From positions 1-51,650 of IMG/VR virus record IMGVR_UViG_3300004154_000015: a stretch of 51,650 nt of DNA. One strand, given 5' to 3'. Position numbers and translations under genes: made by a program. Under the pieces are notes generated by a model. That model was not told the origin of the DNA and made no database searches. It was given only the letters and a program-made list of their open reading frames with translations. This DNA comes from a virus. The stretch's first letter is position 1. Each line of letters starts with the position of its first letter. Positions 20,115-41,565 of this stretch are shown one piece after another.

Positions 20115-20414
20115 ATGGAAAGCAGAATTTACAAAAACCCCAGCACCTATGACATCAAAAACAAGGGGTGTGGTTCTGAAGAGATTGAAGTCCTTTGCGA
20201 CATTTTTGAAAGCCTGATGATGCAGCAAACAGGCAAAATGCTTCGCAAGGCGGTCTATAATCTCAAAGATTTTGAAAGTGCCGAGCAATTAGAAATCGAC
20301 GCATTCACCCTGACGTTAGAGCGTCACGATCATCCAGACCAAGATGAATGGCAAGGTCTTTTTGAGGCCAACAACCGCACCCTAGAGGTCTGGGGAACGG
20401 TAGAAGAAACCTAA
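20115..20414 (+). CDS. unknown small moron protein, 99 aa
   Basis: GGAGG at 20105-20109 sits five bases before the ATG at 20115, which I prefer to the ATG at 20103. The product is soluble and acidic, with no TM segment. A helical part around CDIFESLMMQQTGKMLRKAVYNL is followed by a charged C-terminus ending LEVWGTVEET. No family recognised. It has its own strong promoter and converges on the DUF4268 gene with a four-base overlap of stops, so it is probably a prophage-expressed accessory gene. Confidence 0.7.
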   Translation: MESRIYKNPSTYDIKNKGCGSEEIEVLCDIFESLMMQQTGKMLRKAVYNLKDFESAEQLEIDAFTLTLERHDHPDQDEWQGLFEANNRTLEVWGTVEET

Positions 20415-21367
20415 TCCGCCACTTTGTATGTAAAGAGTGGGCGGAAAGCCCTATCGAATTTTTCCAGCTTATCTTGCATCCATGCGAATTGTTCCGGCCA
20501 TGCCTTTTCGTCATTCGGGTCAACGGACGTATAAAGTTGAACACGTGAAGACTTATTGTCCGGCATCTCGCGCCATTCCATTTCCTCCCCGACAATCGCC
20601 TCGATAGTTTCTTTTTGTTTTATAAGCTCTGCAAAAAGTTCCTTCGCGTTATCTGAATTAATGGTTAGGCCAACGCCGATTCTGTTGTCCTTTGCAATAA
20701 GAAGGGCTGATGTGTGGGCACGGCTTGTCCCAATTCCGAAACTGTACCAGTGATCCCGCGACGGTTTTTGTGGACGCAGTTTGCTCTTTTGCTGATGCAA
20801 AAAGGCGCGGAAGGCCGTCCAGTATTTTAAGCGAAGGTTCTGTGTTGGCGTAGCGTCCTCGGATATGGCCTCGGCGGCATGCCGCACTGTGTTTTCCCAA
20901 TCATTGGGTTCGCAGATAACATTAAAACGCGGGGCGGCAGGAGAGTCGCCTATTTTCCAAAGTTCAATCTCCAACCCAAAGAAACGAACAGAGCTGTCCG
21001 TCATCTGATTGAGCCAATCCAAAGCGGCACGATGCTCCTCGCTAAAGTCAGCCGAGATCCAAACGATTGTTTGCGCCTTTAATCCGGCGGCATAGGTCAA
21101 GAGCTGGCCCAGATGTTTGTGATCAGTTTTTTCGATCTGGTTTTCGATCACAACCCAGCTGTCTTTCTCGGCTGTGTTCTTACACAAAAGATCGGCGCGG
21201 AACGGCCCAACGTCTTTCTCTTGGGCTTCAAGTTCCAGCTCCATTCCAAGAGTATCGCCCAAAATTTCGAGATTCTCCGGCTGCGCCAACCAAGGCGTGA
21301 AGTGCCGATCTTCGCTTGTCCAAATTGACCGCAGATCAACGCTCTCGATACGACCCAGCTTTTCCAT
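20411..21367 (-). CDS. DUF4268 protein with PD-(D/E)XK nuclease-like N-terminus, 318 aa
   Basis: The first 120 residues have a restriction-endonuclease-like pattern: GPFRADLL with Asp59, VVIENQ with Glu75-x-Gln77, and the following helix HLGQLLTYAAG. The Lys of the motif is replaced by Gln, a known variant. The rest (about 170-318) contains LKYWTAFRAFL, IGVGLTIN and a final MQDKLEKFDRAFRP typical of DUF4268. These proteins are widespread in defence islands and mobile elements, with unproven activity. It is read against the late genes and shares only a 31-base gap with the endolysin gene, so it is a separate moron; anti-phage nuclease is a fair hypothesis. Confidence 0.8.
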   Translation of the reverse strand: MEKLGRIESVDLRSIWTSEDRHFTPWLAQPENLEILGDTLGMELELEAQEKDVGPFRADLLCKNTAEKDSWVVIENQIEKTDHKHLGQLLTYAAGLKAQTIVWISADFSEEHRAALDWLNQMTDSSVRFFGLEIELWKIGDSPAAPRFNVICEPNDWENTVRHAAEAISEDATPTQNLRLKYWTAFRAFLHQQKSKLRPQKPSRDHWYSFGIGTSRAHTSALLIAKDNRIGVGLTINSDNAKELFAELIKQKETIEAIVGEEMEWREMPDNKSSRVQLYTSVDPNDEKAWPEQFAWMQDKLEKFDRAFRPLFTYKVAD

Positions 21368-22897: not shown

Positions 22898-25800
22898 TTA
22901 CATAAAATCAAGATTATCCCAAGAACCGCGCCGTCTTCTGTGTCCCCCTCTGAGGATAGGCTCATATTCAGAAAAGGACGAAGGAAAGATAGGCATAAAG
23001 AAACACATCGACGAACCGCCGCCACCCGCGCTGCCGCCCGAACCTACGCTCATGCTCGTAACTTGGGCGGCTGCTATTGTAAAATCCTCTCTTTTCTCTT
23101 CTTGCTTCGTTTCAGAAGAAGCAGAAGCCGAGGATGTTTCAACTTCAGCGGTAGATCTGGAACTATCGTCAACAGTTTGCTGCACGGCCTGTTGAACGGC
23201 AGGCTCTTCCTCCTGGTCTGATGATTTGCCCGCATTCTGCGATCCGGAAGGTGCTTCCTCCTCATCAGCCTGACTCTCAACCGTTTCGAGAACTTCGTTC
23301 TTGTCAGAAGATACGGGGGGATCGCCTTGCGTCGCAAGTTCGGCGGATTCCTCTTGAGAACTTTGCCCCATTGCCATGTTATCTTCCAATTGTACGGCAG
23401 CATCAGTGCCTTCTTCATAACCTGCATCAGCGGCCAAGTTTGTCTGCTTATCCCCAGAAAGAGCCTGATCTGCGACGTTGTTTTCTTGGGCTTCCTCAAC
23501 TGTCGTCACAGAAGCGTTTTGTCCAACCGTATCGGATAAATTAGCTGTTTCATCCGCTTGCTCAACCGCGTCCGTAGCTTGGGCCATTTCCGCTGTTTGT
23601 TGTTGAATGTTATCTTCCGAGGCTACATGTTCTGCTGTTTCATTCCCATCGAGCGCGGGTTCGGTTTGGGCAGCATCGGTGGCCGAATGGGCAATCTCCG
23701 CCTTTAATTCTGCGATTTCGGCTTGATGGCTTTCGTAGGTTCTTTCATAAGTCGCCGCCTCATTAGGGGACAGCTCTTCCATTCCATCTTTCAGAAGCTG
23801 GGAGGAGTATTCCAGTTGCTCAAGCTTTTTTTCTGCGGCGGTCTTCTCGGTGTTCTCGTCCAAAGCAAAAAAATCTGCTTTATCTTGAAGCGAAGATTCG
23901 TTTTGCTCAGCTTGAGCCACATCCTCTGTGGCAGCGATTTCCTGAACATCGTTTTGAAGCGCTTTCTCGGCTTCAGTTCCTTCCGCTGTGGCAAGAGCGG
24001 CTTCTTCCACCAACTGAGGCTTCTCGCTCGTTTGTTCCGTTTGGCTTGCCGTGATTTCCTTCGCGGCAGCAACCTCTTCAGTATCCAAATTTTGAGCCGT
24101 TGCATCTTCGGCAAGTGCGGCTTTTTCTTCTTCCGTCAGTTGGGCTTCCTCGTTCGCCTGTTCTGCCTGTTTGGCCGTAAGCTCCTGCGCGGCAGCTTTT
24201 TCCTCCGCCTCAATGGTTTCGGGCGTTGCCTCTTCTGTAAGTTCGGCTCTTGCTTTTTGAGCTTCCGCCGCTTTTTCTTCAGCAACGGCTTCGGCCTGCT
24301 GGGCTTCTTCCGTTTTTAGCGCGGCATCCTCTTTGGCCTCTACCGCTTCTTCGGCCTTTTGTTTGGCAACCTCTTTGGCCTCTTTAGCTTCCTCGGCCTT
24401 TTGGTCAGCCTCAGCTCTAGCTTCTTCTGCTTCTGTCGTTTTCTGTTTTGCTTCCTCTTGCGCCTGCAGAAACTCTTTGGTTTCTTGCTCTTCTTCAGTC
24501 GCCTGTTTGACGACTTCTTCCGCCTTTTGGGCTTCTTCCTCTTTTTCTAGGGCAATCTCCTCAGCCTTTTCCGCTTCCTTGGCTTTCTGTTGCGCTATTT
24601 CTTCGGCCTCAAGGGCTTCTTCTTCCTTCTTCTCCGCAAGCGCTTCGGCTTTTTGCGCCTCTTGCGATTTTTGCTGCGATTCCTGTTCCGCTAGTTCGGC
24701 CACTTCTTCCTTTTGCTGGACGGCTTCTTCGGCTTTTTTAGCTTCCTCGGCCTGTTGCGCTTCTTCTTGGGCGCGTTGTTCCTCAAGCGCCTTTTGTTCT
24801 TCTTCCTGACGGCGGGCTTCTTCCTCTTTGAGGGCTGCTTCAGCCGCAAGCGCAGCGGCTTCGGCCTGCTGTTGTTCAGGCAAAATGGTTTCGACGATCT
24901 CTTGGGCCGCTTCGGCCTCGGCGGCGGTGCGGGCGATCTCCGCATTTAATTCCGCAATCTCAGCTTGATTCTTCTCGCAAACCCTTTCGTTAACCGCCGC
25001 CTCGTTAGGGGGCAGGTCTTCCATTTGGTCTTTCAAGAGCTGGGTGGAATATTCCAATCGCTCAATTCTCTCCGCCGCAGCCGCCGCTGTTTGCTCGGCA
25101 ATCTGTGCCTTTTCATCGGCAAGAGCTTGGGCTTGCTCCAGTTCGGTTGTCTTCTGATCCGCCAAGGCGCGGGCTTCAGCGGCTTCTTGGTTTAGAACCT
25201 CTAATCTGTTTTCAGCTTCTTGTTGTTTTTCTAAAGCGTGCTTTTCTTTTTCTAATCTTACAGCTTCTTTTGCCTCCTCAACTAGTTCATGTATTTTTTT
25301 GTTGGCATCAGGTGTCCCTATCTCAAGTGCTGCTCCTTCGAGATGCGCCTCAAGTATCCTTTTCTTGCTAGATTCGTCTAAACACACGTCTTGATCTACA
25401 ATATCTGCACCAACCTGATGCAGATAGTTGCTGACCACACCATTTATTTCGAGTTCTTTCTCCTGTTCCGGCGTGAATTGTGGGGCAGGGTATCCATTCT
25501 TTTCAGCGTCCTCATTTGCTGCACGTTCAATTTCTTGAGTTTTCTCGTAGATATAGTGAGTCATCTTGCCGTACTCCACCATATCTTCTTGCTCAAATCT
25601 AAACTCAGCAACGTGGCCGTTGCTGAGCCGGATCGTCATATTTACATCACGAAAGCCACTTTCGGTTGGGGTGGCAAAACGGTCTTTCAAGCTTGTGACA
25701 TCATATTCGTCGGACATTTTTTGGGCATAGTCGCGGACGATTTGAACTTCCTCTAACGGACCAACAATTATTCTGCCGCGGATGATGTCAGTTATACGAG

Positions 25801-26020
25801 AACAAACCCCCTCGTAGTCTCCTTCAACCTTTTCTATGATGCGATTTTCGGCTTTCTCATTTATTTCTACAGTTGCGCTGTTAAAAAGATCTGGGTGAGC
25901 CTCCTTAAGATCTGAAAAGATGTTATGCACAACTTCTTGAAACTCAGGAAGAGCTTCCTTTCCTTGAGCAATTAATTCTTGCAGGCTAAAATTGGGGTTC
26001 TGCTTATAATAGTCCGCCAT
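22898..26020 (-). CDS. RelA/SpoT-like domain protein with long Glu/Ala-rich coiled coil, 1040 aa
   Basis: N-terminal residues about 40-170 match the RelA/SpoT nucleotidyltransferase fold of the small-synthetase or toxin type: ITDIIRGRIIV with Asp78, Arg81 and Arg83; LKDRFATPTESGFRDVNMTI (111-130); NGHVAEFRFEQ with Glu139; and THYIYEK. Residues about 230-620 form a very long TolA-like helix of E/A/K/Q heptads. An about 55-residue block is duplicated (repeat entries). The tail is Gly-rich and ends in an Arg cluster (RGGHRRRRGSW). GAGGA precedes the start. It is the last gene of the VirD4-ATPase module. Possible roles are alarmone synthesis or pyrophosphate transfer to RNA, linked to a membrane machine; activity is unproven. 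Confidence 0.7.
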   Translation of the reverse strand: MADYYKQNPNFSLQELIAQGKEALPEFQEVVHNIFSDLKEAHPDLFNSATVEINEKAENRIIEKVEGDYEGVCSRITDIIRGRIIVGPLEEVQIVRDYAQKMSDEYDVTSLKDRFATPTESGFRDVNMTIRLSNGHVAEFRFEQEDMVEYGKMTHYIYEKTQEIERAANEDAEKNGYPAPQFTPEQEKELEINGVVSNYLHQVGADIVDQDVCLDESSKKRILEAHLEGAALEIGTPDANKKIHELVEEAKEAVRLEKEKHALEKQQEAENRLEVLNQEAAEARALADQKTTELEQAQALADEKAQIAEQTAAAAAERIERLEYSTQLLKDQMEDLPPNEAAVNERVCEKNQAEIAELNAEIARTAAEAEAAQEIVETILPEQQQAEAAALAAEAALKEEEARRQEEEQKALEEQRAQEEAQQAEEAKKAEEAVQQKEEVAELAEQESQQKSQEAQKAEALAEKKEEEALEAEEIAQQKAKEAEKAEEIALEKEEEAQKAEEVVKQATEEEQETKEFLQAQEEAKQKTTEAEEARAEADQKAEEAKEAKEVAKQKAEEAVEAKEDAALKTEEAQQAEAVAEEKAAEAQKARAELTEEATPETIEAEEKAAAQELTAKQAEQANEEAQLTEEEKAALAEDATAQNLDTEEVAAAKEITASQTEQTSEKPQLVEEAALATAEGTEAEKALQNDVQEIAATEDVAQAEQNESSLQDKADFFALDENTEKTAAEKKLEQLEYSSQLLKDGMEELSPNEAATYERTYESHQAEIAELKAEIAHSATDAAQTEPALDGNETAEHVASEDNIQQQTAEMAQATDAVEQADETANLSDTVGQNASVTTVEEAQENNVADQALSGDKQTNLAADAGYEEGTDAAVQLEDNMAMGQSSQEESAELATQGDPPVSSDKNEVLETVESQADEEEAPSGSQNAGKSSDQEEEPAVQQAVQQTVDDSSRSTAEVETSSASASSETKQEEKREDFTIAAAQVTSMSVGSGGSAGGGGSSMCFFMPIFPSSFSEYEPILRGGHRRRRGSWDNLDFM
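23690..23840 (-). repeat. copy 1 of internal duplication in the 1040-aa gene
   Basis: Encodes LEQLEYSSQLLKDGMEEL followed by SPNEAATYERTYESHQAEI and AELKAEI, matching about 55 residues encoded at 24936-25080. The two copies differ at scattered positions, so the duplication is old enough to have diverged or came from a related gene. Boundaries are approximate. Confidence 0.75.
24936..25080 (-). repeat. copy 2 of internal duplication in the 1040-aa gene
   Basis: Encodes RIERLEYSTQLLKDQMEDL followed by PPNEAAVNERVCEKNQAEI and AELNAEI, the partner of 23690-23840. In the protein this copy is nearer the RelA/SpoT-like domain; the coiled coil between the copies spans about 370 residues. Confidence 0.75.
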
Positions 26021-26058: not shown

Positions 26059-26361
26059 TTAATCATTTTTAAATTCAGATCTTGGAAGATGCTTGCGTCT
26101 GTTCGACATGTAATCACGAACAAGATCCACGAATTCTTCTTTTGTAACAGATGTCACATCATCCTCTTTCCGGATCACAGACAGCATATGAATGTTAGGC
26201 ATCAGAACCCCGTCTTTCTTGTGATCTGGGCACTCAGCAAATATTTTTAATTTACGTTTATTGATTGTAACTCTAACGGGTATGATGGACCCCACACAGT
26301 AATATTTGTAATTTCCATCGGCTTCCGGTGAAGGGGAGATATAGGGTTTTTCTTCAGTCAT
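26059..26361 (-). CDS. free-standing paralogue of the neighbouring N-terminal domain, 100 aa
   Basis: Starts MTEEKPYISPSPEADGNYKYY, nearly the same as the first residues of the protein at 26410-27303, and the similarity continues (PVRV.....LSMI.KE....TKEEFV) to about residue 90. It ends with a basic tail (NRRKHLPRSEFKND). It lacks the RelA/SpoT-like part, which in the next gene downstream is present without this domain. It may therefore be a split form of the fused protein or a dedicated regulator of the downstream product. No known family. Confidence 0.7.
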   Translation of the reverse strand: MTEEKPYISPSPEADGNYKYYCVGSIIPVRVTINKRKLKIFAECPDHKKDGVLMPNIHMLSVIRKEDDVTSVTKEEFVDLVRDYMSNRRKHLPRSEFKND

Positions 26362-26409
26362 TGTCTTCTACCTTTCTGGTTATTGCATTCGAGTTTCCGA
26401 AAGCCGAGT

Positions 26410-27303
26410 TTATTTCACAGCACGCCAATGTGTACAACGAATGTCATCTCTTATTTTTACAACTATCTTTTTCTTTTCCGGCGTCAGCTCTTTGCCAAGA
26501 TTGTTGCTTTCAAGGTCTTGCGCGATTTCATGAGGTAAACTCGTCAGTTTTCGTGCGGACATCATTTTTGTATATTCGATGCGAAATTCTGCTACATGCC
26601 CATTTTTCAATTTCACGTTCGTCAATACATCGCGATAAAGGTCATTCGCTGGCGTCTCAAAGCGATTCCTAATCCTTACAAGATTAAGAGCCTCTGCATA
26701 TTTTTTGATGTATTCTATGGCAAGGCCAACTTCTTCAGCTGTGTTCACAACGATCCAACCACAGCATAGGTTTACGGCTCTCCACAGCTTTCCATCGTAG
26801 TCCCTTCGAAGTTTTGCCTCAGCTTTGCCTTTGTCCTTTAAGTTGGCCGTCTCAAATCTGGCGTCTTCAAACTTGCCTGGAAATTTTGTTCGAAGATCAT
26901 CCAGAACATTGTCACCAAACTGACTCAGAAGCGGGGTGGACTCGACGGCTTTAGCATACAACTCATCAAAATTTAGTTCTCGATTCTGAAAACAAGCGCT
27001 GTCCTCAACGCGAGGGGTGTTTGACAAAGCCATTCTTTTGCAATAGGTGGCGTACCCCTCACAAAATCCGATAAAGTCCTCTTTTGTAATCTCATCAGCA
27101 TATTCCTCCTTAAATATCATTGAGAGCATAGAATTGTTGACCTTCATTTGTCCCGGCATGCCATCGTTCGGCATTTCCGCAAGACACTCATGTTTGTTCT
27201 CATCAAGTTTAACCCGAACAGGCATATCTCCTGCGACCAGATAATACTTGTAATCTCCATCGGCTTCCGGTGGAGGGGCGATATAGTTCTTTTCTTCTGT
27301 CAT
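26410..27303 (-). CDS. N-domain plus degenerate RelA/SpoT-like domain, 297 aa
   Basis: I place the start at the ATG at 27303, preceded by GAGGAATGGAA; a GTG 15 bases upstream is possible. Residues 1-90 are the domain shared with the 100-aa neighbour. Residues about 130-265 align with the RelA/SpoT-like region of the 1040-aa protein (KLRRDYDGKLWRAV, RIRNRFETPANDLYRDVLT, LKNGHVAEFRIEY). The Asp and two Arg of ITDIIRGR are replaced (NLCCGW), so catalysis is unlikely while the fold and the Glu are kept. It may be a non-catalytic partner or an immunity-like regulator. It overlaps the ATPase gene end region closely. Confidence 0.7.
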   Translation of the reverse strand: MTEEKNYIAPPPEADGDYKYYLVAGDMPVRVKLDENKHECLAEMPNDGMPGQMKVNNSMLSMIFKEEYADEITKEDFIGFCEGYATYCKRMALSNTPRVEDSACFQNRELNFDELYAKAVESTPLLSQFGDNVLDDLRTKFPGKFEDARFETANLKDKGKAEAKLRRDYDGKLWRAVNLCCGWIVVNTAEEVGLAIEYIKKYAEALNLVRIRNRFETPANDLYRDVLTNVKLKNGHVAEFRIEYTKMMSARKLTSLPHEIAQDLESNNLGKELTPEKKKIVVKIRDDIRCTHWRAVK

Positions 27304-27314
27304 TTTTCCATTCC

Positions 27315-30300
27315 TCACTTCGGCGGCGCGATTGCTTTTAGCTCAGGGCGCTGCCTTGGCAGTTTTGGCGGAACCAGCGGCCCGCGTATTCTTAGTCTTT
27401 CGCTTTGCGCGTCGAAAGCGCGTTCCATGTCCTCCATGTCCCTGATCGCACGGGCGTGGGCCCGATGGTGCGCGGCGGCGCGGGCCTCGTCCAAACGTCT
27501 AGCAAAGCCCTCGAAGCTTACCTGCGCTTCGTTGAGGCGCATGACCTGTCCGTTGAACTGCCTTATCTTGCCGATGGTACCCATCACGTTCTGCTGACCT
27601 TCACGGATCTGCTTGCGCAAAAGCTGATGATAGGAGTCTTCATCCTCACGAAGACCCGTGACGTATCCCCGGACAAGGCCGTCGAACTTTTCGAGGTGTG
27701 GGTCTTTCACCGACTCCAGCGCGGCATCCATCAGCATAACGTCTTTGCGATCACGCCGCTTTTTGGAAGGTGCCAGTTCGGCACGACGCGACACGGCGTC
27801 GCCAACCGTCTTGATGTCGTCCGGCAGATCATATCCGGTCAAGGGCGTGTCAAAATAGGCCTCCAGCTCCTTGCGCGTTTCCACGCCCTTTTCAGGGAGA
27901 ACGGCAAGTTCTTGCGAGACTTCTGGGGCCAACACCTCGGCCTCGAACATCTCCGGCATCGGAGCCGTGCGACTTGTTAAAGCGCGTGGTGGTGGCGGGC
28001 CAAGTTTGGTGGGCGTGACCAAAGGGGGCTGGACAAGATAATCGCCTCTGTCGAAGTCAAAGAACTTCTCGCGGACTCTCCCATATTTGCGCAATTTGTT
28101 GGCGTAGCGCACCCAATCCCCCGAAGACCAGCCACTTACGGCACCGCTTCGGATTTCTCCAAATAACTCACGGCTGGTTGCTAGATTGGCGCGGTGCTCT
28201 TCCAACAGTTCCGTCAATACCTCATGACTGTTAGCCAGAGCGGACTCCATCTTCCCGTTTCCGGTAACGAGTTCATGCTGCCGCTCGACGGTTTCGTTTA
28301 TATACTCCTTGGTGGCATCGTGAGCTTCCATGACGGGATCAAGTTGATCCCTGACCATCTTCATGGCCGCACCGCGCATGTCCGTGTAGTCCTTCCAGCA
28401 AACAAACTTCTCGCGTACCAGTTTGTATCGCTGCCATGAGGCGGCGGCTATGCCCGTCAACATCAACGCGCCAAACGTGATTCCGGCAGCCATAATTGAA
28501 CCGCCGACATAGCAAGTCGTAGCGACTCCGGCTGCGGTCGCGGCCTTGACGTATGGACTGCGGAAGAAACTGTTAAAGAAGCCGGGCTTTTCATTGAACT
28601 TGTCCAGCCGATACCGCGCTCCGAGATACCTTTCGCAGGTCTCTTTAACGCCTTGCCCCCATTCGGAAAGCTTCGCGGGAGCCGTCCACGCGACAGGATT
28701 CTTAGGCACCCAATTCAGCTTGCTTTCGTCCAAATTGAACCCCTCCAGATCAACGGGCGGCATCGGCTTCAGCCGTACAACCGTCTTCTTGGGCGGATCG
28801 GGGAAAGCAGGAGCTTCAGGTATAGGCGGGCCTTCCGCACGCTCCCTCAAAAACGGTATTTCATAGTATCGCGCCTGCTGGTCCAAAGTGCAATGGCTCT
28901 GCTTCCTGCCGCTGATAAAAAGGATCTGTTTTTCACCGGAAAAACAATCTTCTATCTGACGGGCATCCATTCCATCTATGACAATGGGCTGATAAGACAG
29001 GTTATAATTCGTGCTCCAACTCTCGTTGTTGTTGCGCCCCTTTTGCGTGGTTTCGCTTTCAGCGGTGCCTCCCCCCTTGGAATCGGTCTTGCCGGACTGG
29101 GTTGACTCACCTTGCGTGTCAGCCGTGCCGTGGGAGGTCGATGTCGAGCCACCCGATCCGGAACTTGATCCACCGGGACCGGACATGCTGCTCCAAAAGT
29201 TAGAAAGCGTTGTTACGATGGAGTTCGTTTTTTGGGCCGTCCTTCCGACAGAGTTTGAGACCGCGACTTGCCAAGTATTTTGGTCAACCGTTCCCTTGGC
29301 GACAGACTCTTGCTCCCCAACGCCGAGTTGGATTCCCTGTCCTTCGCTCACGGTCGGCACATAGACCATGTAGCGGCCAAGACGCTTGCTGATATATTCA
29401 ATCGATTTGGGTTCGTGACTGCGAAGAAACTGGACGACTTCCGAAGACCCAAGAAAAGCGGCGGCTCGTTCTTCGCCGTAAACATCCCTCAGACTTGCGT
29501 AGTCCTGAAACAAGCTCCAAAAGATGATGCCTTTTTGGCGTACCGTTTGAGCGCCCGTCGCAATGGCCTGAAGATGCCCCAGTTGCGTTAACTCATCGAT
29601 CATGAACAGGATGCGGTCTTCCTTCTTAAAGTCTTTTCCTCCATTGCCCGGATTAGGCGTGCCATCAATTGCGCTTTGCAAAATAAGACGAAGCCACGGC
29701 TGATAATTGATATACTCGTCAACGTTCGGCATGACGATGTAGATCGTCGTTTTTTTGCCACGCAGGTCCATCATGGAGAAGTCCGAGGAAACCATGTGCT
29801 GACCAAGACAATCATCAGCCATCCATTTGTCTAACCATTGGGAAGTCGCCGTGACGACGGAGCGCACGTTCTGGTCTCCGGGTTGGGCCGTGCTAAGATA
29901 ATTTCCGAACTTATTCAGCAATCTTTGATGCGGGCCGCGCCACCCTGTTAGCTCTGCAATGTGTTTGTCCCACGCTTCCGACGGAAACTCGCTGAAGATT
30001 TTTGCCATATAAACAAAATTCTTGTGCTCATAGGGTATTGTGTCTGCCAGCTTCAGATAGACGATCATCGCCGCAATAAGACCGCTCGGATTTTCCCTAA
30101 AATAGGGATTTTGCTCCTTATGTCCCTGCGAATCTGATATGAGAGCAGATGACATTGTTAGAATGCGGCTATAAAAATCAGGCTCCTTTGGATCTAGATC
30201 GTCCATAGGATTGTAGTTGCTTGATCCCAATCCGATGATGTTCTGGGGATCAAAAATATAAATATCCTGCCCAAGAGTCCATTTGCGATGATTGTAAGTC

Positions 30301-30647
30301 CTCTTGAACGTAGCCCCGCCGATCTCAAGGGAAACAACGGAGCCTGCATAGGATAAAAGGTTAGACGTTGCCGAAGCGGCGGTCTTTCCCGATCCTGTAT
30401 TGCCTATGACGTTCCCGTGCGTTTCAACATCCTGATAAATAGGCACGCCATTATACGCGCCGACAATGAGACCATGGGGATCAGCAAGACAATCCGATCC
30501 ATTGTCCATGACGTTCTGGACGGAAATGAGTGCCTTGTTGTCGGCATGGTATTGAACGGGGGCTATATTGAAAGGCCGTTCAATTGCCCTGTCCAACTTC
30601 GTGAGGACTTGGAGTTCCTCTTTTTTCTTTTCCAAAACTGGGAGCAT
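27315..30647 (-). CDS. VirD4/TraD-like type IV coupling ATPase with C-terminal membrane and helical region, 1110 aa
   Basis: Walker A is GNTGSGKT at residues 82-89 and Walker B is ILFMIDE at 346-352, followed by LTQLGHLQAIATGAQTVRQKG and the sensor-like SLFQDYASLRDVYGE, typical of VirD4/TraG coupling proteins. A Ser/Gly linker (about 488-535) leads to a second conserved block ending at about 605. Unlike normal coupling proteins there is no N-terminal membrane anchor; instead hydrophobic segments lie at about 700-738, then a long coiled region to the C-terminus. AAGGAGGA precedes the start. No relaxase or VirB4 is nearby, so DNA transfer by itself is doubtful; it may move a protein substrate, or work in defence. 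Confidence 0.85.
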   Translation of the reverse strand: MLPVLEKKKEELQVLTKLDRAIERPFNIAPVQYHADNKALISVQNVMDNGSDCLADPHGLIVGAYNGVPIYQDVETHGNVIGNTGSGKTAASATSNLLSYAGSVVSLEIGGATFKRTYNHRKWTLGQDIYIFDPQNIIGLGSSNYNPMDDLDPKEPDFYSRILTMSSALISDSQGHKEQNPYFRENPSGLIAAMIVYLKLADTIPYEHKNFVYMAKIFSEFPSEAWDKHIAELTGWRGPHQRLLNKFGNYLSTAQPGDQNVRSVVTATSQWLDKWMADDCLGQHMVSSDFSMMDLRGKKTTIYIVMPNVDEYINYQPWLRLILQSAIDGTPNPGNGGKDFKKEDRILFMIDELTQLGHLQAIATGAQTVRQKGIIFWSLFQDYASLRDVYGEERAAAFLGSSEVVQFLRSHEPKSIEYISKRLGRYMVYVPTVSEGQGIQLGVGEQESVAKGTVDQNTWQVAVSNSVGRTAQKTNSIVTTLSNFWSSMSGPGGSSSGSGGSTSTSHGTADTQGESTQSGKTDSKGGGTAESETTQKGRNNNESWSTNYNLSYQPIVIDGMDARQIEDCFSGEKQILFISGRKQSHCTLDQQARYYEIPFLRERAEGPPIPEAPAFPDPPKKTVVRLKPMPPVDLEGFNLDESKLNWVPKNPVAWTAPAKLSEWGQGVKETCERYLGARYRLDKFNEKPGFFNSFFRSPYVKAATAAGVATTCYVGGSIMAAGITFGALMLTGIAAASWQRYKLVREKFVCWKDYTDMRGAAMKMVRDQLDPVMEAHDATKEYINETVERQHELVTGNGKMESALANSHEVLTELLEEHRANLATSRELFGEIRSGAVSGWSSGDWVRYANKLRKYGRVREKFFDFDRGDYLVQPPLVTPTKLGPPPPRALTSRTAPMPEMFEAEVLAPEVSQELAVLPEKGVETRKELEAYFDTPLTGYDLPDDIKTVGDAVSRRAELAPSKKRRDRKDVMLMDAALESVKDPHLEKFDGLVRGYVTGLREDEDSYHQLLRKQIREGQQNVMGTIGKIRQFNGQVMRLNEAQVSFEGFARRLDEARAAAHHRAHARAIRDMEDMERAFDAQSERLRIRGPLVPPKLPRQRPELKAIAPPK

Positions 30648-30662: not shown

Positions 30663-32081
30663 TTACGGTGCAGGCGTGTTGTTAGGCTTGTTGCCAGAGG
30701 CAGCGTCTTTTCGTCTTTGAGCCAAGCTCACAACCGTCCCCATTAGGCCTGATTGATTTTTGTCATCCTCCTCAAATCTTTCACGGCGAGGATGAACGGC
30801 GTCTTTCACCATTTGTGCTCCCGTTTGTATGGCCGTCCCCATATTTTCTCCGGAGAAAAGAGTATCGATTTCGCACAAACGAGTTTTGACTTCCTGCGCG
30901 ACGGGATTCTTTTTGCAGGCATTCGTCATGGCATCACGATAGCGGTGAACCATGTCGCCGACCGCGACTCTGGCGGCAGCTTCGCCACGCGAGGATTCCA
31001 GATCATGAACGAACAGTTCTTTAACCCGACGCTGCGCCGTTTCTTTCCGCCCTTTTCGGAAAGTCGAAGCTGCGTGCGCAATGACCGTCGCAACAACCAA
31101 CTGAGAGGCAATGAGCCAAGCCCCCAGATAACCCGCTCCAAGTATCTGCCCCCACCATGTGGCGGGGCTTTCCGCATCTGTCTTCTTCTTGTTTGATGTC
31201 AGACTCGCTGCTGTTGCTTTGGCTTCGCCAAGAAGTTTTTCATCTTCGGGAATGGTCACGTTTATCAATTGTCGACCCTGTTCGTCGTTGCCTGTGTAGC
31301 CGTCGCCCAAGATGGGTTTTCCACCGATGCCGCCGTGATCAAGCGTGTCCCTGTCTCTTGCGAGTTTCTCGGTGAAGTGAATGGCTTGCGCCTCTGCCTT
31401 GGCCAAGCTCTCGTCAGCCGTATAGGATTGTGAGCGCAAACTCTGCGGTAACATGTTTGCAAAATGACCTTTGAAGTTCGGATTGTCCGCCGCGAGCATT
31501 GAAGCGCCGATACTTGCAGTAACCAGCAATCCTCCGAGAAACACTCGAAATCCTTTATGCTCGGACAAGCCAATGCCCGCCGCGAAAACGAGAGAGCCTC
31601 CCGCAAGAGCCGTAAACCACGGGTTGTTTTGCATAAGGCCATTTGCGGCACCACCGAAGATCGCGACGTCAATAGCGCCGCCAGCGATCAGGGCCACGAC
31701 AGGAACCGTGCAGGTCAACAGACGGCTTCCCATCATATGCGCGCCGAGCTGCCACCAGCGTGCGCCGACTTCCGCCTTCGCCGCCCGGTATTGCGCCAAA
31801 ACGGCTGAACCAGCCATATGTCCCAAACCTTCTGGAGATAATTTTCCTCCCTCGCGTTCGATGCGATATGCTTGGTCAATGGTCTCGGCAGGCTTGGATG
31901 GGCCATCGAAATCCGGCTTTTCGACTGTATTGAGCGTGCGTTCAGCAAAAGTGTGCTCCGCCTCCGGCGGCATCACCCCCGTTTCGTTTTCAGAGGCGGC
32001 TTTGCTTTCCGCTTTTTCCTGCTTTTTCCCCTGATCTTGTTCTTTATCTTTTTCCTGAACTATTGCTTCGCCTTCGCTCAT
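30663..32081 (-). CDS. multi-pass membrane protein of the coupling-ATPase module, 472 aa
   Basis: A charged N-terminus (first about 110 residues, KDKEQDQGKKQEKAESK-rich) is followed by four likely TM segments (about 124-146, 154-170, 175-194 and near 330-352), with a soluble, coiled stretch between and a basic C-terminus ending in NNTPAP. GGAGCTAAAA supports the start. The ATPase gene follows after 15 bases. It may be the membrane platform that replaces the missing TM anchor of the ATPase. I do not recognise a named family. Confidence 0.75.
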   Translation of the reverse strand: MSEGEAIVQEKDKEQDQGKKQEKAESKAASENETGVMPPEAEHTFAERTLNTVEKPDFDGPSKPAETIDQAYRIEREGGKLSPEGLGHMAGSAVLAQYRAAKAEVGARWWQLGAHMMGSRLLTCTVPVVALIAGGAIDVAIFGGAANGLMQNNPWFTALAGGSLVFAAGIGLSEHKGFRVFLGGLLVTASIGASMLAADNPNFKGHFANMLPQSLRSQSYTADESLAKAEAQAIHFTEKLARDRDTLDHGGIGGKPILGDGYTGNDEQGRQLINVTIPEDEKLLGEAKATAASLTSNKKKTDAESPATWWGQILGAGYLGAWLIASQLVVATVIAHAASTFRKGRKETAQRRVKELFVHDLESSRGEAAARVAVGDMVHRYRDAMTNACKKNPVAQEVKTRLCEIDTLFSGENMGTAIQTGAQMVKDAVHPRRERFEEDDKNQSGLMGTVVSLAQRRKDAASGNKPNNTPAP

Positions 32082-37335: not shown

Positions 37336-38271
37336 ATGAACGCACAAATCCAAAAACAAATTGAGGCTTCTGCTTTTAATCAAGCCATACACGAATGGCT
37401 TTCCGGTCAAACTACAGGACATCTTGGCGCTTACATGTACACAGAGGATCGAGATGATCATCGCTGGAAAGATGGGCATAGCGCAGAATCCTATTATCTT
37501 GGCCGCGATGACAAAGCAACTTTTGATCTTGCCGTAAAAGAGCTCAACCTTAATGTGAAACATTTTTTTGATCTTGGCCCTGGCGGAGAAGCCTCTGTCC
37601 GAGCCAAAAGCCTTCCTTTCATGAAGGCGTTGGGTGCAACAGAATATTTCCCCGTTGATTTGTCCCCGACACTAGCGAATGAAGCGCTGTCAACTATGAA
37701 GATGAACATTCCTGCTGTGAGTGGGAAACCGTTAATCGCTGATTTTTTTGATAGTATCCCTGAGCACAGAAACAACTCCCTTCTTGCTATCGTGGGGGGA
37801 ACCATTGGCAATTTTGAAACACATACAAGCAAAGCAGATTTGCTAACCCGATTGTCAGAAATCTTCTCCATCTACAGAAGTGCTGTTGGCGAAAACAGTT
37901 ATTTTCTTGTTAGCTTTGATGCAAACACGAATGAAAAGGAAATTGTGGGCGCTTATGATTGTCCTCAATTCGATTATCTAATTCGGGGCTGCGTTGAGCG
38001 CGCGATTGATACCAACGGTTTTGATTATCATGTCAATTGGACGCCTGATAACTATCAGCTTGCCTTGGGATTTAAGTCCAATAGAGATCAAATAGTCTTT
38101 TTTGATGGTGCTCAATATGCAATCGAGGAAGGCGAATATCTGCCTGTCCTTAATTCCTATCGCTTCCCTGTTTCTTTTGTTGCCGAGGCTGCAAAAAAAG
38201 CAGGATGGGGTTATAAGAACACATGGTCGGCCACGGGGCGCACTCATTATATGTTATTTGCTGCTGTTTAG
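37336..38271 (+). CDS. EgtD-like (histidine-specific type) SAM methyltransferase, 311 aa
   Basis: Motif I FDLGPGGE at residues 78-85 and FPVDLSP at 105-111, followed by GGTIGNF at 154-160, are the marks of the EgtD/DUF2260 methyltransferase family, in which the first enzyme of ergothioneine synthesis trimethylates histidine. The C-terminus (NSYRFP and WGYKNTWSATGRTHYML) also fits. The substrate is unknown; no EgtB gene is nearby. It is transcribed with the Xre-sensor regulator upstream. The sequence appears more AT-rich than the head genes, suggesting separate acquisition. Confidence 0.75.
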   Translation: MNAQIQKQIEASAFNQAIHEWLSGQTTGHLGAYMYTEDRDDHRWKDGHSAESYYLGRDDKATFDLAVKELNLNVKHFFDLGPGGEASVRAKSLPFMKALGATEYFPVDLSPTLANEALSTMKMNIPAVSGKPLIADFFDSIPEHRNNSLLAIVGGTIGNFETHTSKADLLTRLSEIFSIYRSAVGENSYFLVSFDANTNEKEIVGAYDCPQFDYLIRGCVERAIDTNGFDYHVNWTPDNYQLALGFKSNRDQIVFFDGAQYAIEEGEYLPVLNSYRFPVSFVAEAAKKAGWGYKNTWSATGRTHYMLFAAV

Positions 38272-40569: not shown

Positions 40570-41565
40570 TTGAATGTTCTCGATCTCTTCTCAGGCATCG
40601 GCGGATTCTCTCTCGGTCTCGAAGCCGCAGGAATGCGAACCGCCGCTTTTTGCGAGGTTGAACCTTATTGCCGCGCCGTCTTGCGAAAGCACTGGCCGGA
40701 CGTGCCGATCCACAAGGACGTGCGCGCGCTCGACGGCGGGCAATACAGGGGCGCAGTCGAGCTTGTTTGCGGGGGATACCCTTGCCAGCCCTTCAGCATG
40801 GCAGGACGAAGGCGTGGCGAGGAAGATGAAAGACATCTCTGGCCGGAGATGTATCGCCTTGTTCGAGAGATCAGGCCGCGATGGGTCGTTGCCGAAAATG
40901 TTGCTGGACATATTAGCCTCGGCTTCGACGAAGTTGCCTCATCGTTGGAAGCTGAAGGCTTCACCGTCTGGCCGTTTATTGTTCCAGCTTGCGCCGTTGG
41001 CGCGCCGCACAGACGAGACCGCGTGTGGATTGTGGGCCATGCCCAACACAATGGACCATCTTCCGCAGCGGTCGCCGGAAGCACTCTTGCATCAAGCCCA
41101 GACAACGCGGAAAGGACGCACGAGGCCGGCCAATCTATGGGAGCAAGTCAATCCAACGACGATGGCCTTATGGCCAACGCCGGATGTTCGGGGATTCACG
41201 AACGATGGGGCGCTCCTCATGCTGAAGGAGAAATGCCACAGCCGCGAAGAATGGGCGGCGATGGCTTATCGGTCAGGATCGGCGCAGAAGCAGAAGCTTT
41301 GGCCGACGCCAAACGCCAGCGATTGTCGAGACAGGGGGAATCTGAGCCATCCTGTTGTGCAGCGCCGCGCTGCCAAGGGGAAGCAGCTTGGCTTGAGCAT
41401 GGTCGTGTCGGAGAGCAGTGGTCAATTGAACCCAACGTGGGTCGAGTGGCTCATGGGATTCCCAACCGAGTGGAGCGTTTGCGCGCCCTCGGCAATGCCG
41501 TCGTACCGCAAATCCCGTTCCTCATCGGGCAAGCCATTTTGCGATACGAGCAGGAGATGAGCTGA
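40570..41565 (+). CDS. cytosine-C5 DNA methyltransferase (Dcm-type), 331 aa
   Basis: Motif I is LDLFSGIGG at about residues 4-12; the catalytic PCQ is 71-73 (GGYPCQPFS); ENV is 109-111; RRDRVWIV and the C-terminal LGNAVVPQI are present. It uses a TTG start at 40570; a stop lies just upstream in this frame, so no earlier start exists. The spacing from AGGGG to this TTG is only 1-2 bases. The target region (about 165-280) is the same DNA that encodes the second frame. It overlaps the next gene by one base. Confidence 0.9.
   Translation: MNVLDLFSGIGGFSLGLEAAGMRTAAFCEVEPYCRAVLRKHWPDVPIHKDVRALDGGQYRGAVELVCGGYPCQPFSMAGRRRGEEDERHLWPEMYRLVREIRPRWVVAENVAGHISLGFDEVASSLEAEGFTVWPFIVPACAVGAPHRRDRVWIVGHAQHNGPSSAAVAGSTLASSPDNAERTHEAGQSMGASQSNDDGLMANAGCSGIHERWGAPHAEGEMPQPRRMGGDGLSVRIGAEAEALADAKRQRLSRQGESEPSCCAAPRCQGEAAWLEHGRVGEQWSIEPNVGRVAHGIPNRVERLRALGNAVVPQIPFLIGQAILRYEQEMS
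40574..41560 (+). CDS. overprinted protein in second frame of the methyltransferase gene, 328 aa
   Basis: A 328-codon frame, open over almost the same span as the methyltransferase, begins with ATG at 40574, six bases after AGGGG, the better-placed start. The product contains LLFQLAP, two copies of a WPTP unit (LWPTPDVRGF and LWPTPNASDC) and LNPTWVEWLMGFPTEW, which I recognise from phage proteins that also occur as stand-alone genes annotated as DNA methyltransferase-associated. Real dual coding is therefore likely. Exact activity unknown; it may help DNA modification or binding. Confidence 0.6.
   Translation: MFSISSQASADSLSVSKPQECEPPLFARLNLIAAPSCESTGRTCRSTRTCARSTAGNTGAQSSLFAGDTLASPSAWQDEGVARKMKDISGRRCIALFERSGRDGSLPKMLLDILASASTKLPHRWKLKASPSGRLLFQLAPLARRTDETACGLWAMPNTMDHLPQRSPEALLHQAQTTRKGRTRPANLWEQVNPTTMALWPTPDVRGFTNDGALLMLKEKCHSREEWAAMAYRSGSAQKQKLWPTPNASDCRDRGNLSHPVVQRRAAKGKQLGLSMVVSESSGQLNPTWVEWLMGFPTEWSVCAPSAMPSYRKSRSSSGKPFCDTSRR

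Follow-up and report, generated by a model that had tools for sequence, protein, structure and literature searches.

Why should a bacteriophage encode the same small domain in two neighbouring genes, once on its own and once fused to an enzyme-like domain in which catalytic residues are missing? The question is raised by IMG/VR virus record IMGVR_UViG_3300004154_000015 (51,650 nt), the whole of which is called the window here. Three of its genes, all on the minus strand, are concerned. A297 (297 aa, 26410..27303) consists of an immunity-like N-domain of about 85 aa (residues ~6-85) and a degenerate RelA/SpoT-like alarmone-synthetase (SYNTH) domain (residues ~106-297). It is followed by B100 (100 aa, 26059..26361), a stand-alone immunity-like partner, and by C1040 (1040 aa, 22898..26020), in which a toxin-like SYNTH domain (residues ~8-175) precedes a long tail. 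The explanation that we favour, and consider somewhat probable, is a phage-borne lysogenic-conversion cassette in which C1040 is the toxin, B100 confers immunity to it, and A297 joins an immunity domain to a dead copy of the toxin. It starts from two homologies, the resemblance of the N-domain to partner proteins found elsewhere, the residues lost from A297, the predicted retention of its fold, and close packing with a gene for a VirD4-like ATPase.

Shared domains of A297, B100 and C1040

An initial annotation of this DNA placed the A297/B100 pair at 26059-27303 with C1040 as its neighbour, and described the N-domain as occurring side by side in free and fused form and the RelA/SpoT-like domain as occurring alone in the next gene. 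The positions are correct, and alignment confirms both relationships. Residues 1-84 of A297 are identical to B100 at 39 of 84 positions (46%), with a Smith-Waterman score of 194 against a shuffled mean of 27 (maximum 47, 500 shuffles). The similarity extends past the first 20 residues: with these cut from each sequence, the score is 105 against 24 (z 18.5, 0/500 shuffles). Between A297[106-278] and C1040[7-188], 56 of 173 positions are identical (32%; score 235 against 36, z 36, 0/500 shuffles). Pairwise comparison of B100 with C1040 revealed no similarity (z 0.06). The SYNTH domain of C1040 is followed by some 700 aa rich in Ala, Glu and Gln, whose composition makes the previously proposed coiled coil probable, and then by a Gly/Ser linker and an Arg-rich C-terminal tail.

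No protein of the window, A297 and C1040 included, matches Pfam PF04607 over its curated cut-off. Because two relatives, L006 and L007, exceed this cut-off at 30.6 bits, the silence likely reflects divergence of the sequences rather than absence of the domain. Relatives were found on Deinococcus plasmids, a Photobacterium replicon, Bordetella phage PHB04, an actinobacterial-looking contig, and a phage contig. A hidden Markov model (HMM) built from seven outside sequences only recovers C1040 (7.9e-32) and A297 (5.5e-20) among 984 open reading frames (ORFs) of the window, and nothing else notable. A profile of eight family members, including relatives that are themselves more canonical, picks up small alarmone synthetases (SAS; YwaC), Tas1, and RelA from the PDB, with 6e-11 as the strongest value. 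The AlphaFold2 models have a mean predicted local distance difference test score (pLDDT) of 77 for C1040 and 76 for A297. For the SYNTH model of C1040, 69 Foldseek matches were obtained at E<=0.001, the best being SAS/Rel proteins, and comparison with 6fgk gives a VIA Z of 15.3 (root-mean-square deviation, rmsd, 3.2; 177 aligned). Among solved structures, Tas1, 6ox6, comes closest to the SYNTH model of A297 (VIA Z 14.5, rmsd 2.6, 163 aligned, 20% identity), the structure matches of A297 spanning residues 104-297 only. According to these models both proteins carry the SYNTH fold, and the RelA/SpoT label given earlier is upheld by profile and models alike. Among the relatives, gp034 of Bordetella phage PHB04 (L006 4245-5726), annotated as hypothetical, has a RelA_SpoT domain above the Pfam cut-off and adjoins the portal gene.

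The company kept by such relatives bears on the idea that C1040 is an injected or escorting "polyvalent" phage or conjugative protein, which would enter with the DNA and alter the nucleotide pool of the new host, with A297 and B100 controlling it before delivery. RelA/SpoT domains are present in phage polyvalent and MuF proteins (PMC5512222), and the relatives include the 493-aa protein beside the portal gene in phage PHB04 and a 1228-aa ddrB-ParB phage protein. C1040 itself, however, is encoded on the strand opposite to the structural genes and distant from the portal and capsid genes, and no Pfam domain was found in it. We give this idea little credence.

Small partner proteins beside SYNTH genes

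A hint at the identity of the N-domain, which no family in Pfam, NCBIfam or PHROG covers, comes from the surroundings of the outside SYNTH genes. In Deinococcus, a small ORF lies directly downstream of the SYNTH gene of QL22 (77 aa) and of NW-56 (72 aa), and a 145-aa ORF directly follows the C-terminal SYNTH domain of an actinobacterial polymorphic toxin composed of WXG100, Gln_amidase, and RelA_SpoT domains. The neighbourhood and gene order of this WXG100 toxin are those of a toxin with its immunity protein. A plasmid search with the NW-56 partner alone led to D. radiophilus, where the ORF upstream of the match is another SYNTH protein. The partner ORFs of QL22, NW-56 and the WXG100 toxin are interrelated (z 4.6-16). 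The SYNTH/partner pairs on three Deinococcus plasmids (L031 2158-3210, L003 2716-3587, and L001 2863-3800) are unannotated; the D. radiophilus pair is flanked by N-6 methylase/DUF262 genes on one side and a helicase gene on the other.

B100 resembles the NW-56 partner with z 7.1 (0/3000 shuffles). When an HMM built from B100 and the N-domain of A297 is run against 1120 ORFs, three of the four known partners come out at ranks 1, 2, and 4, the top hit being that of NW-56 (E 5e-4) and the next that of D. radiophilus. These comparisons make a good case for homology of B100 to the NW-56 partner and are suggestive for the other partners. Thus, the window has a small gene adjacent to a SYNTH gene and related to the partners of the same clade, the strongest match being that at E 5e-4. 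Because the N-domain resembles proteins that stand in a toxin/immunity layout, we read C1040 as a toxin, B100 as immunity, and A297 as immunity plus dead toxin. The initial annotation had cast A297 as a regulator. Since the N-domain resembles the small partner beside the toxin clade elsewhere, a role in immunity or as an antitoxin seems preferable to plain regulation.

A serious rival, although on balance an unlikely one, assumes no export. The three genes would be a prophage toxin-antitoxin (TA) or phage-exclusion module similar to CapRel/toxSAS, in which B100 and A297 restrain C1040 until infection by a rival phage releases it, the VirD4-like gene being a mere neighbour. Both phages and prophages are known to carry toxSAS, and the fused toxin-antitoxin CapRel is triggered by phage proteins (PMC12691689, PMC11782079). 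The Deinococcus pairs stand alone, one of them between restriction-modification-like genes and a helicase, and the PADLOC model PDC-S33 matches C1040 weakly (3.7e-4). However, neither the tail of about 800 aa in C1040 nor the tight packing behind the coupling ATPase (gaps 11-48 nt) would be expected for a simple TA pair.

Active-site residues of A297 and C1040

The contrast between ITDIIRGR in C1040 and AVNLCCGW in A297, with the Glu of AEFR kept in the latter, is as described in the initial annotation. In an alignment of nine sequences (A297, C1040, and seven outside members), C1040 and the outside members agree without exception in ten columns: K56, R60, K64, D78, G122, R124, D125, A138, E139, and H155 (C1040 numbering). 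A297 keeps six of the ten, the catalytic Glu among them, and breaks four (R>K160, D>N178, G>L222, and H>S255), so that the equivalents of Arg60, Asp78, Gly122, and His155 are lost. Only the Asp had been noticed before; the other three losses, at 160 (Arg>Lys), 222 (Gly>Leu), and 255 (His>Ser), were overlooked. The column of Asp78, encoded at 25787..25789 on the minus strand (the D of ITD), is Asp in 8/8 members other than A297, whose equivalent is Asn178. The two Arg of ITDIIRGR, formerly taken as catalytic markers, must be abandoned, since relatives have K, T, S, A, G, or R in their place; of the triad, the Asp alone is invariant.

In the FaRel2 site D90 is catalytic, and a Tyr-to-Phe change in the G-loop has been used to impair the toxin (PMC11782079). 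By our own mapping onto FaRel2, D78 of C1040 is the predicted Mg2+ ligand equivalent to D90, K56/R60/K64 would belong to the triphosphate-binding helix, and G122-F123 would correspond to the G-loop. As A297 lacks four of the ten invariant residues, the metal-binding Asp among them, yet is modelled with the SYNTH fold intact, it is probably non-catalytic. C1040 retains all ten invariant columns, yet it has Phe123, also missed earlier, at the G-loop position that is Tyr in 7/8 members. Because this is the change used to impair FaRel2, the activity of C1040 is not assured and may be altered or reduced. Thus, of the earlier proposal that one copy is active and the other non-catalytic, the second half is probable and the first uncertain.

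The lost residues would also be expected if A297 were simply a functionless, decaying remnant of an old duplication, and the nucleotide sequence adds to this. The first 22 codons of B100 (26296-26361) and A297 (27238-27303) are 82% identical in DNA, with 12 of 16 synonymous codons identical, and the remainder about 50%, which suggests partial duplication or local conversion over an older relationship. The GC content is low, 43% for A297 and 39% for B100 against 53% for the window. On the other hand, the ORF of A297 is intact over 297 codons and preceded by a Shine-Dalgarno-like GAGGA, its model is well folded and resembles Tas1, and the losses fall on catalytic columns while other invariant columns are kept. 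Decay therefore seems to us distinctly improbable.

Gene neighbourhood, export and known systems

The large terminase of the window has its nearest counterparts in Wolbachia phage WO and Rhodobacter phages (54-57% identity), and by its sequence the phage carrying the cassette is WO-like, related to Wolbachia phage WO. Structural genes occupy the plus strand at 1.2-22 kb, replication and packaging genes lie at the right, and between them a group of five minus-strand genes encodes, in order, a 472-aa membrane protein (30663..32081), a VirD4/TraG-like coupling ATPase of 1110 aa (27315..30647), A297, B100, and C1040. With intergenic gaps of 15, 11, 48, and 38 nt, the five packed genes form an apparent operon; a promoter and terminator scan yielded nothing informative. 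The ATPase matches T4SS-DNA_transf (PF02534, 1.5e-45) and TraG-D_C (PF12696, 1.2e-17), has Walker A/B motifs at residues 82 (Walker A) and 347, and carries a long C-terminal extension with one transmembrane-like (TM-like) segment. An N-terminal TM anchor is usual, not universal, in VirD4/TraG coupling proteins; hydropathy indicates none here, nor any TM segment before residue 700. The membrane protein encoded 15 nt upstream, by the first gene of the group, has three TM-like stretches by hydropathy and no family in Pfam, PHROG or NCBIfam.

Positions 27929-51650 recur as an identical contig from a second metagenome record, which provides a second, though perhaps not independent, view of where the VirD4-like gene joins the phage. 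A search of viral contigs for close relatives of A297, C1040, the 472-aa protein, and the VirD4-like protein brought up only this identical copy of the right part and distant SYNTH relatives; genome contigs yielded no close relative of any of the four and no fused homologue of A297. The SYNTH and coupling-protein genes were not found in 16 other contigs with related terminases, most of which are fragments. A Synechococcus "phage" with a coupling-protein match was considered as a precedent and rejected, because the record looks like a plasmid (RepA, ParA, Txe).

In the favoured cassette, C1040 would act as an alarmone-synthetase-type toxin, and B100 would bind and block it; in known cases partner proteins neutralise SYNTH toxins by occluding or distorting the acceptor or active site (PMC12226406, PMC11782079). 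A297, the same immunity domain on a toxin copy that has retained its predicted fold and probably lost catalysis, could provide extra immunity, form mixed oligomers with C1040, buffer B100, or have a regulatory or decoy function within the producing cell; the data do not distinguish these roles. The five genes would be co-transcribed, the VirD4-like protein would hand C1040 over to a type IV secretion system (T4SS) encoded by the host, and the lysogen would benefit. SYNTH toxins with immunity proteins have been tied to type VI (T6SS) and type VII (T7SS) secretion systems, MuF proteins, and one T4SS-like locus (PMC12691689). The nearest published hint of a type IV link is a Streptomyces albireticuli alarmone synthetase beside TrwB/TrwK/TrwI-type genes (PMC12691689). 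The most specific version, in which the coupling ATPase of a temperate phage plugs a SYNTH toxin into the type IV machine of its host under two-tier immunity, the immunity/dead-toxin fusion acting as a decoy or hetero-oligomer poison, is doubtful, and we offer it only tentatively.

Several observations weigh against the cassette. Partner homology is significant for NW-56 alone, that to the actinobacterial and QL22 partners being transitive and weak; the external partner HMM finds B100 only at E 0.2, though at rank 1 of 984; and profile-profile comparison of the two-row N-domain alignment with the four partners aligns 65 columns at low probability (P 0.006). The gene order is reversed, with the partner before the toxin, and the toxin domain of C1040 is N-terminal, unlike the C-terminal domains of classical polymorphic toxins. 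The G-loop Tyr is Phe in C1040. A297 is known from one sequence, no second one having been found, and beyond the first 22 codons B100 and A297 are too diverged for dN/dS, so selection on A297 is not measurable. VirB4 and MobA/MobL relaxases, the relaxase families searched, are absent from the contig, and thus the relaxase and VirB4 that together mark a conjugative element are missing for these families; XVIPCD (PF20410) has no match at E<=1. The VirD4-like neighbour is suggestive of export, possibly through a host type IV system; in the absence of these components, any such export would need host machinery.

Other genes of the phage deserve mention. Two fully overlapping long frames at 40570-41565 (+) and 40574-41560 (+, other frame) match methyltransferase families phrog_363 (7e-80) and phrog_1008 (1.5e-25), respectively. 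Both are open in relative L010, where substitutions by codon position number 45/16/38, against 78/32/218 and 73/41/252 in neighbours with their third-position excess; the pattern points to a probable dual-coding gene pair. A DUF4268 protein (9.5e-34) is encoded at 20411-21367 (-), in moron-like fashion on the opposite strand between tail and lysis genes, and a histidine-specific SAM methyltransferase (PF10017, 5e-28) at 37336-38271 (+).

Among known systems, the T6SS (p)ppApp synthetase Tas1 (Apk1) with its immunity protein Tis1 (PDB 6ox6) shares the SYNTH fold and the pairing of toxin with cognate partner, and its profile match shares the K-x3-R-x3-K ... DYxGD ... D region with our family. 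It differs in being a T6SS effector, and B100 has no sequence match to any solved immunity protein in the PDB, the best rows of a five-row profile being Epac/CAP-type cyclic-nucleotide-domain proteins at E 0.0017 and above. We know of no catalytically dead, immunity-fused paralogue beside Tas1. Exported alarmone synthetases are likewise tied to secretion systems, often with immunity genes (PMC12691689); in contrast, the SYNTH domain here is N-terminal with a long coiled-coil-like tail, lies in a phage, and is accompanied by a VirD4-like protein but by no VirB4 or MobA/MobL relaxase. Apk2/IapK/Aph1, a MuF prophage toxin with two immunities, is also a prophage-borne SYNTH toxin, whose immunity protein occludes the active site (PMC12226406), whereas our locus has no MuF domain, does not lie by capsid genes, and shows an immunity/dead-toxin fusion instead of a hydrolase immunity. 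The fused CapRel/toxSAS toxin-antitoxins combine a neutralising-type and a SYNTH domain in one chain, as A297 does (PMC11782079); unlike them, A297 lacks the catalytic Asp and the G-loop Gly, and its neutralising-type domain is N-terminal and not recognisable as pZFD by sequence. Xanthomonas X-T4SS effectors, with an N-terminal toxic domain, a C-terminal delivery part, VirD4, and cognate immunity (PMC6536674), offer a functional analogy only, as here XVIPCD and VirB4 were not found and the location is a phage.

Secreted alarmone synthetases have been linked to many export routes only recently. The one described here belongs to a WO-like phage, is encoded next to a VirD4-like ATPase, and is accompanied by an immunity-type domain in two forms, one free and one fused to a dead copy of the toxin. 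If the cassette explanation is right, A297 would be a natural pseudo-toxin for studying how SYNTH toxins are restrained, the N-domain would define a new immunity family for this SYNTH clade, including the unannotated Deinococcus and actinobacterial pairs, and the phage would be a candidate for one that borrows the type IV machine of its host.
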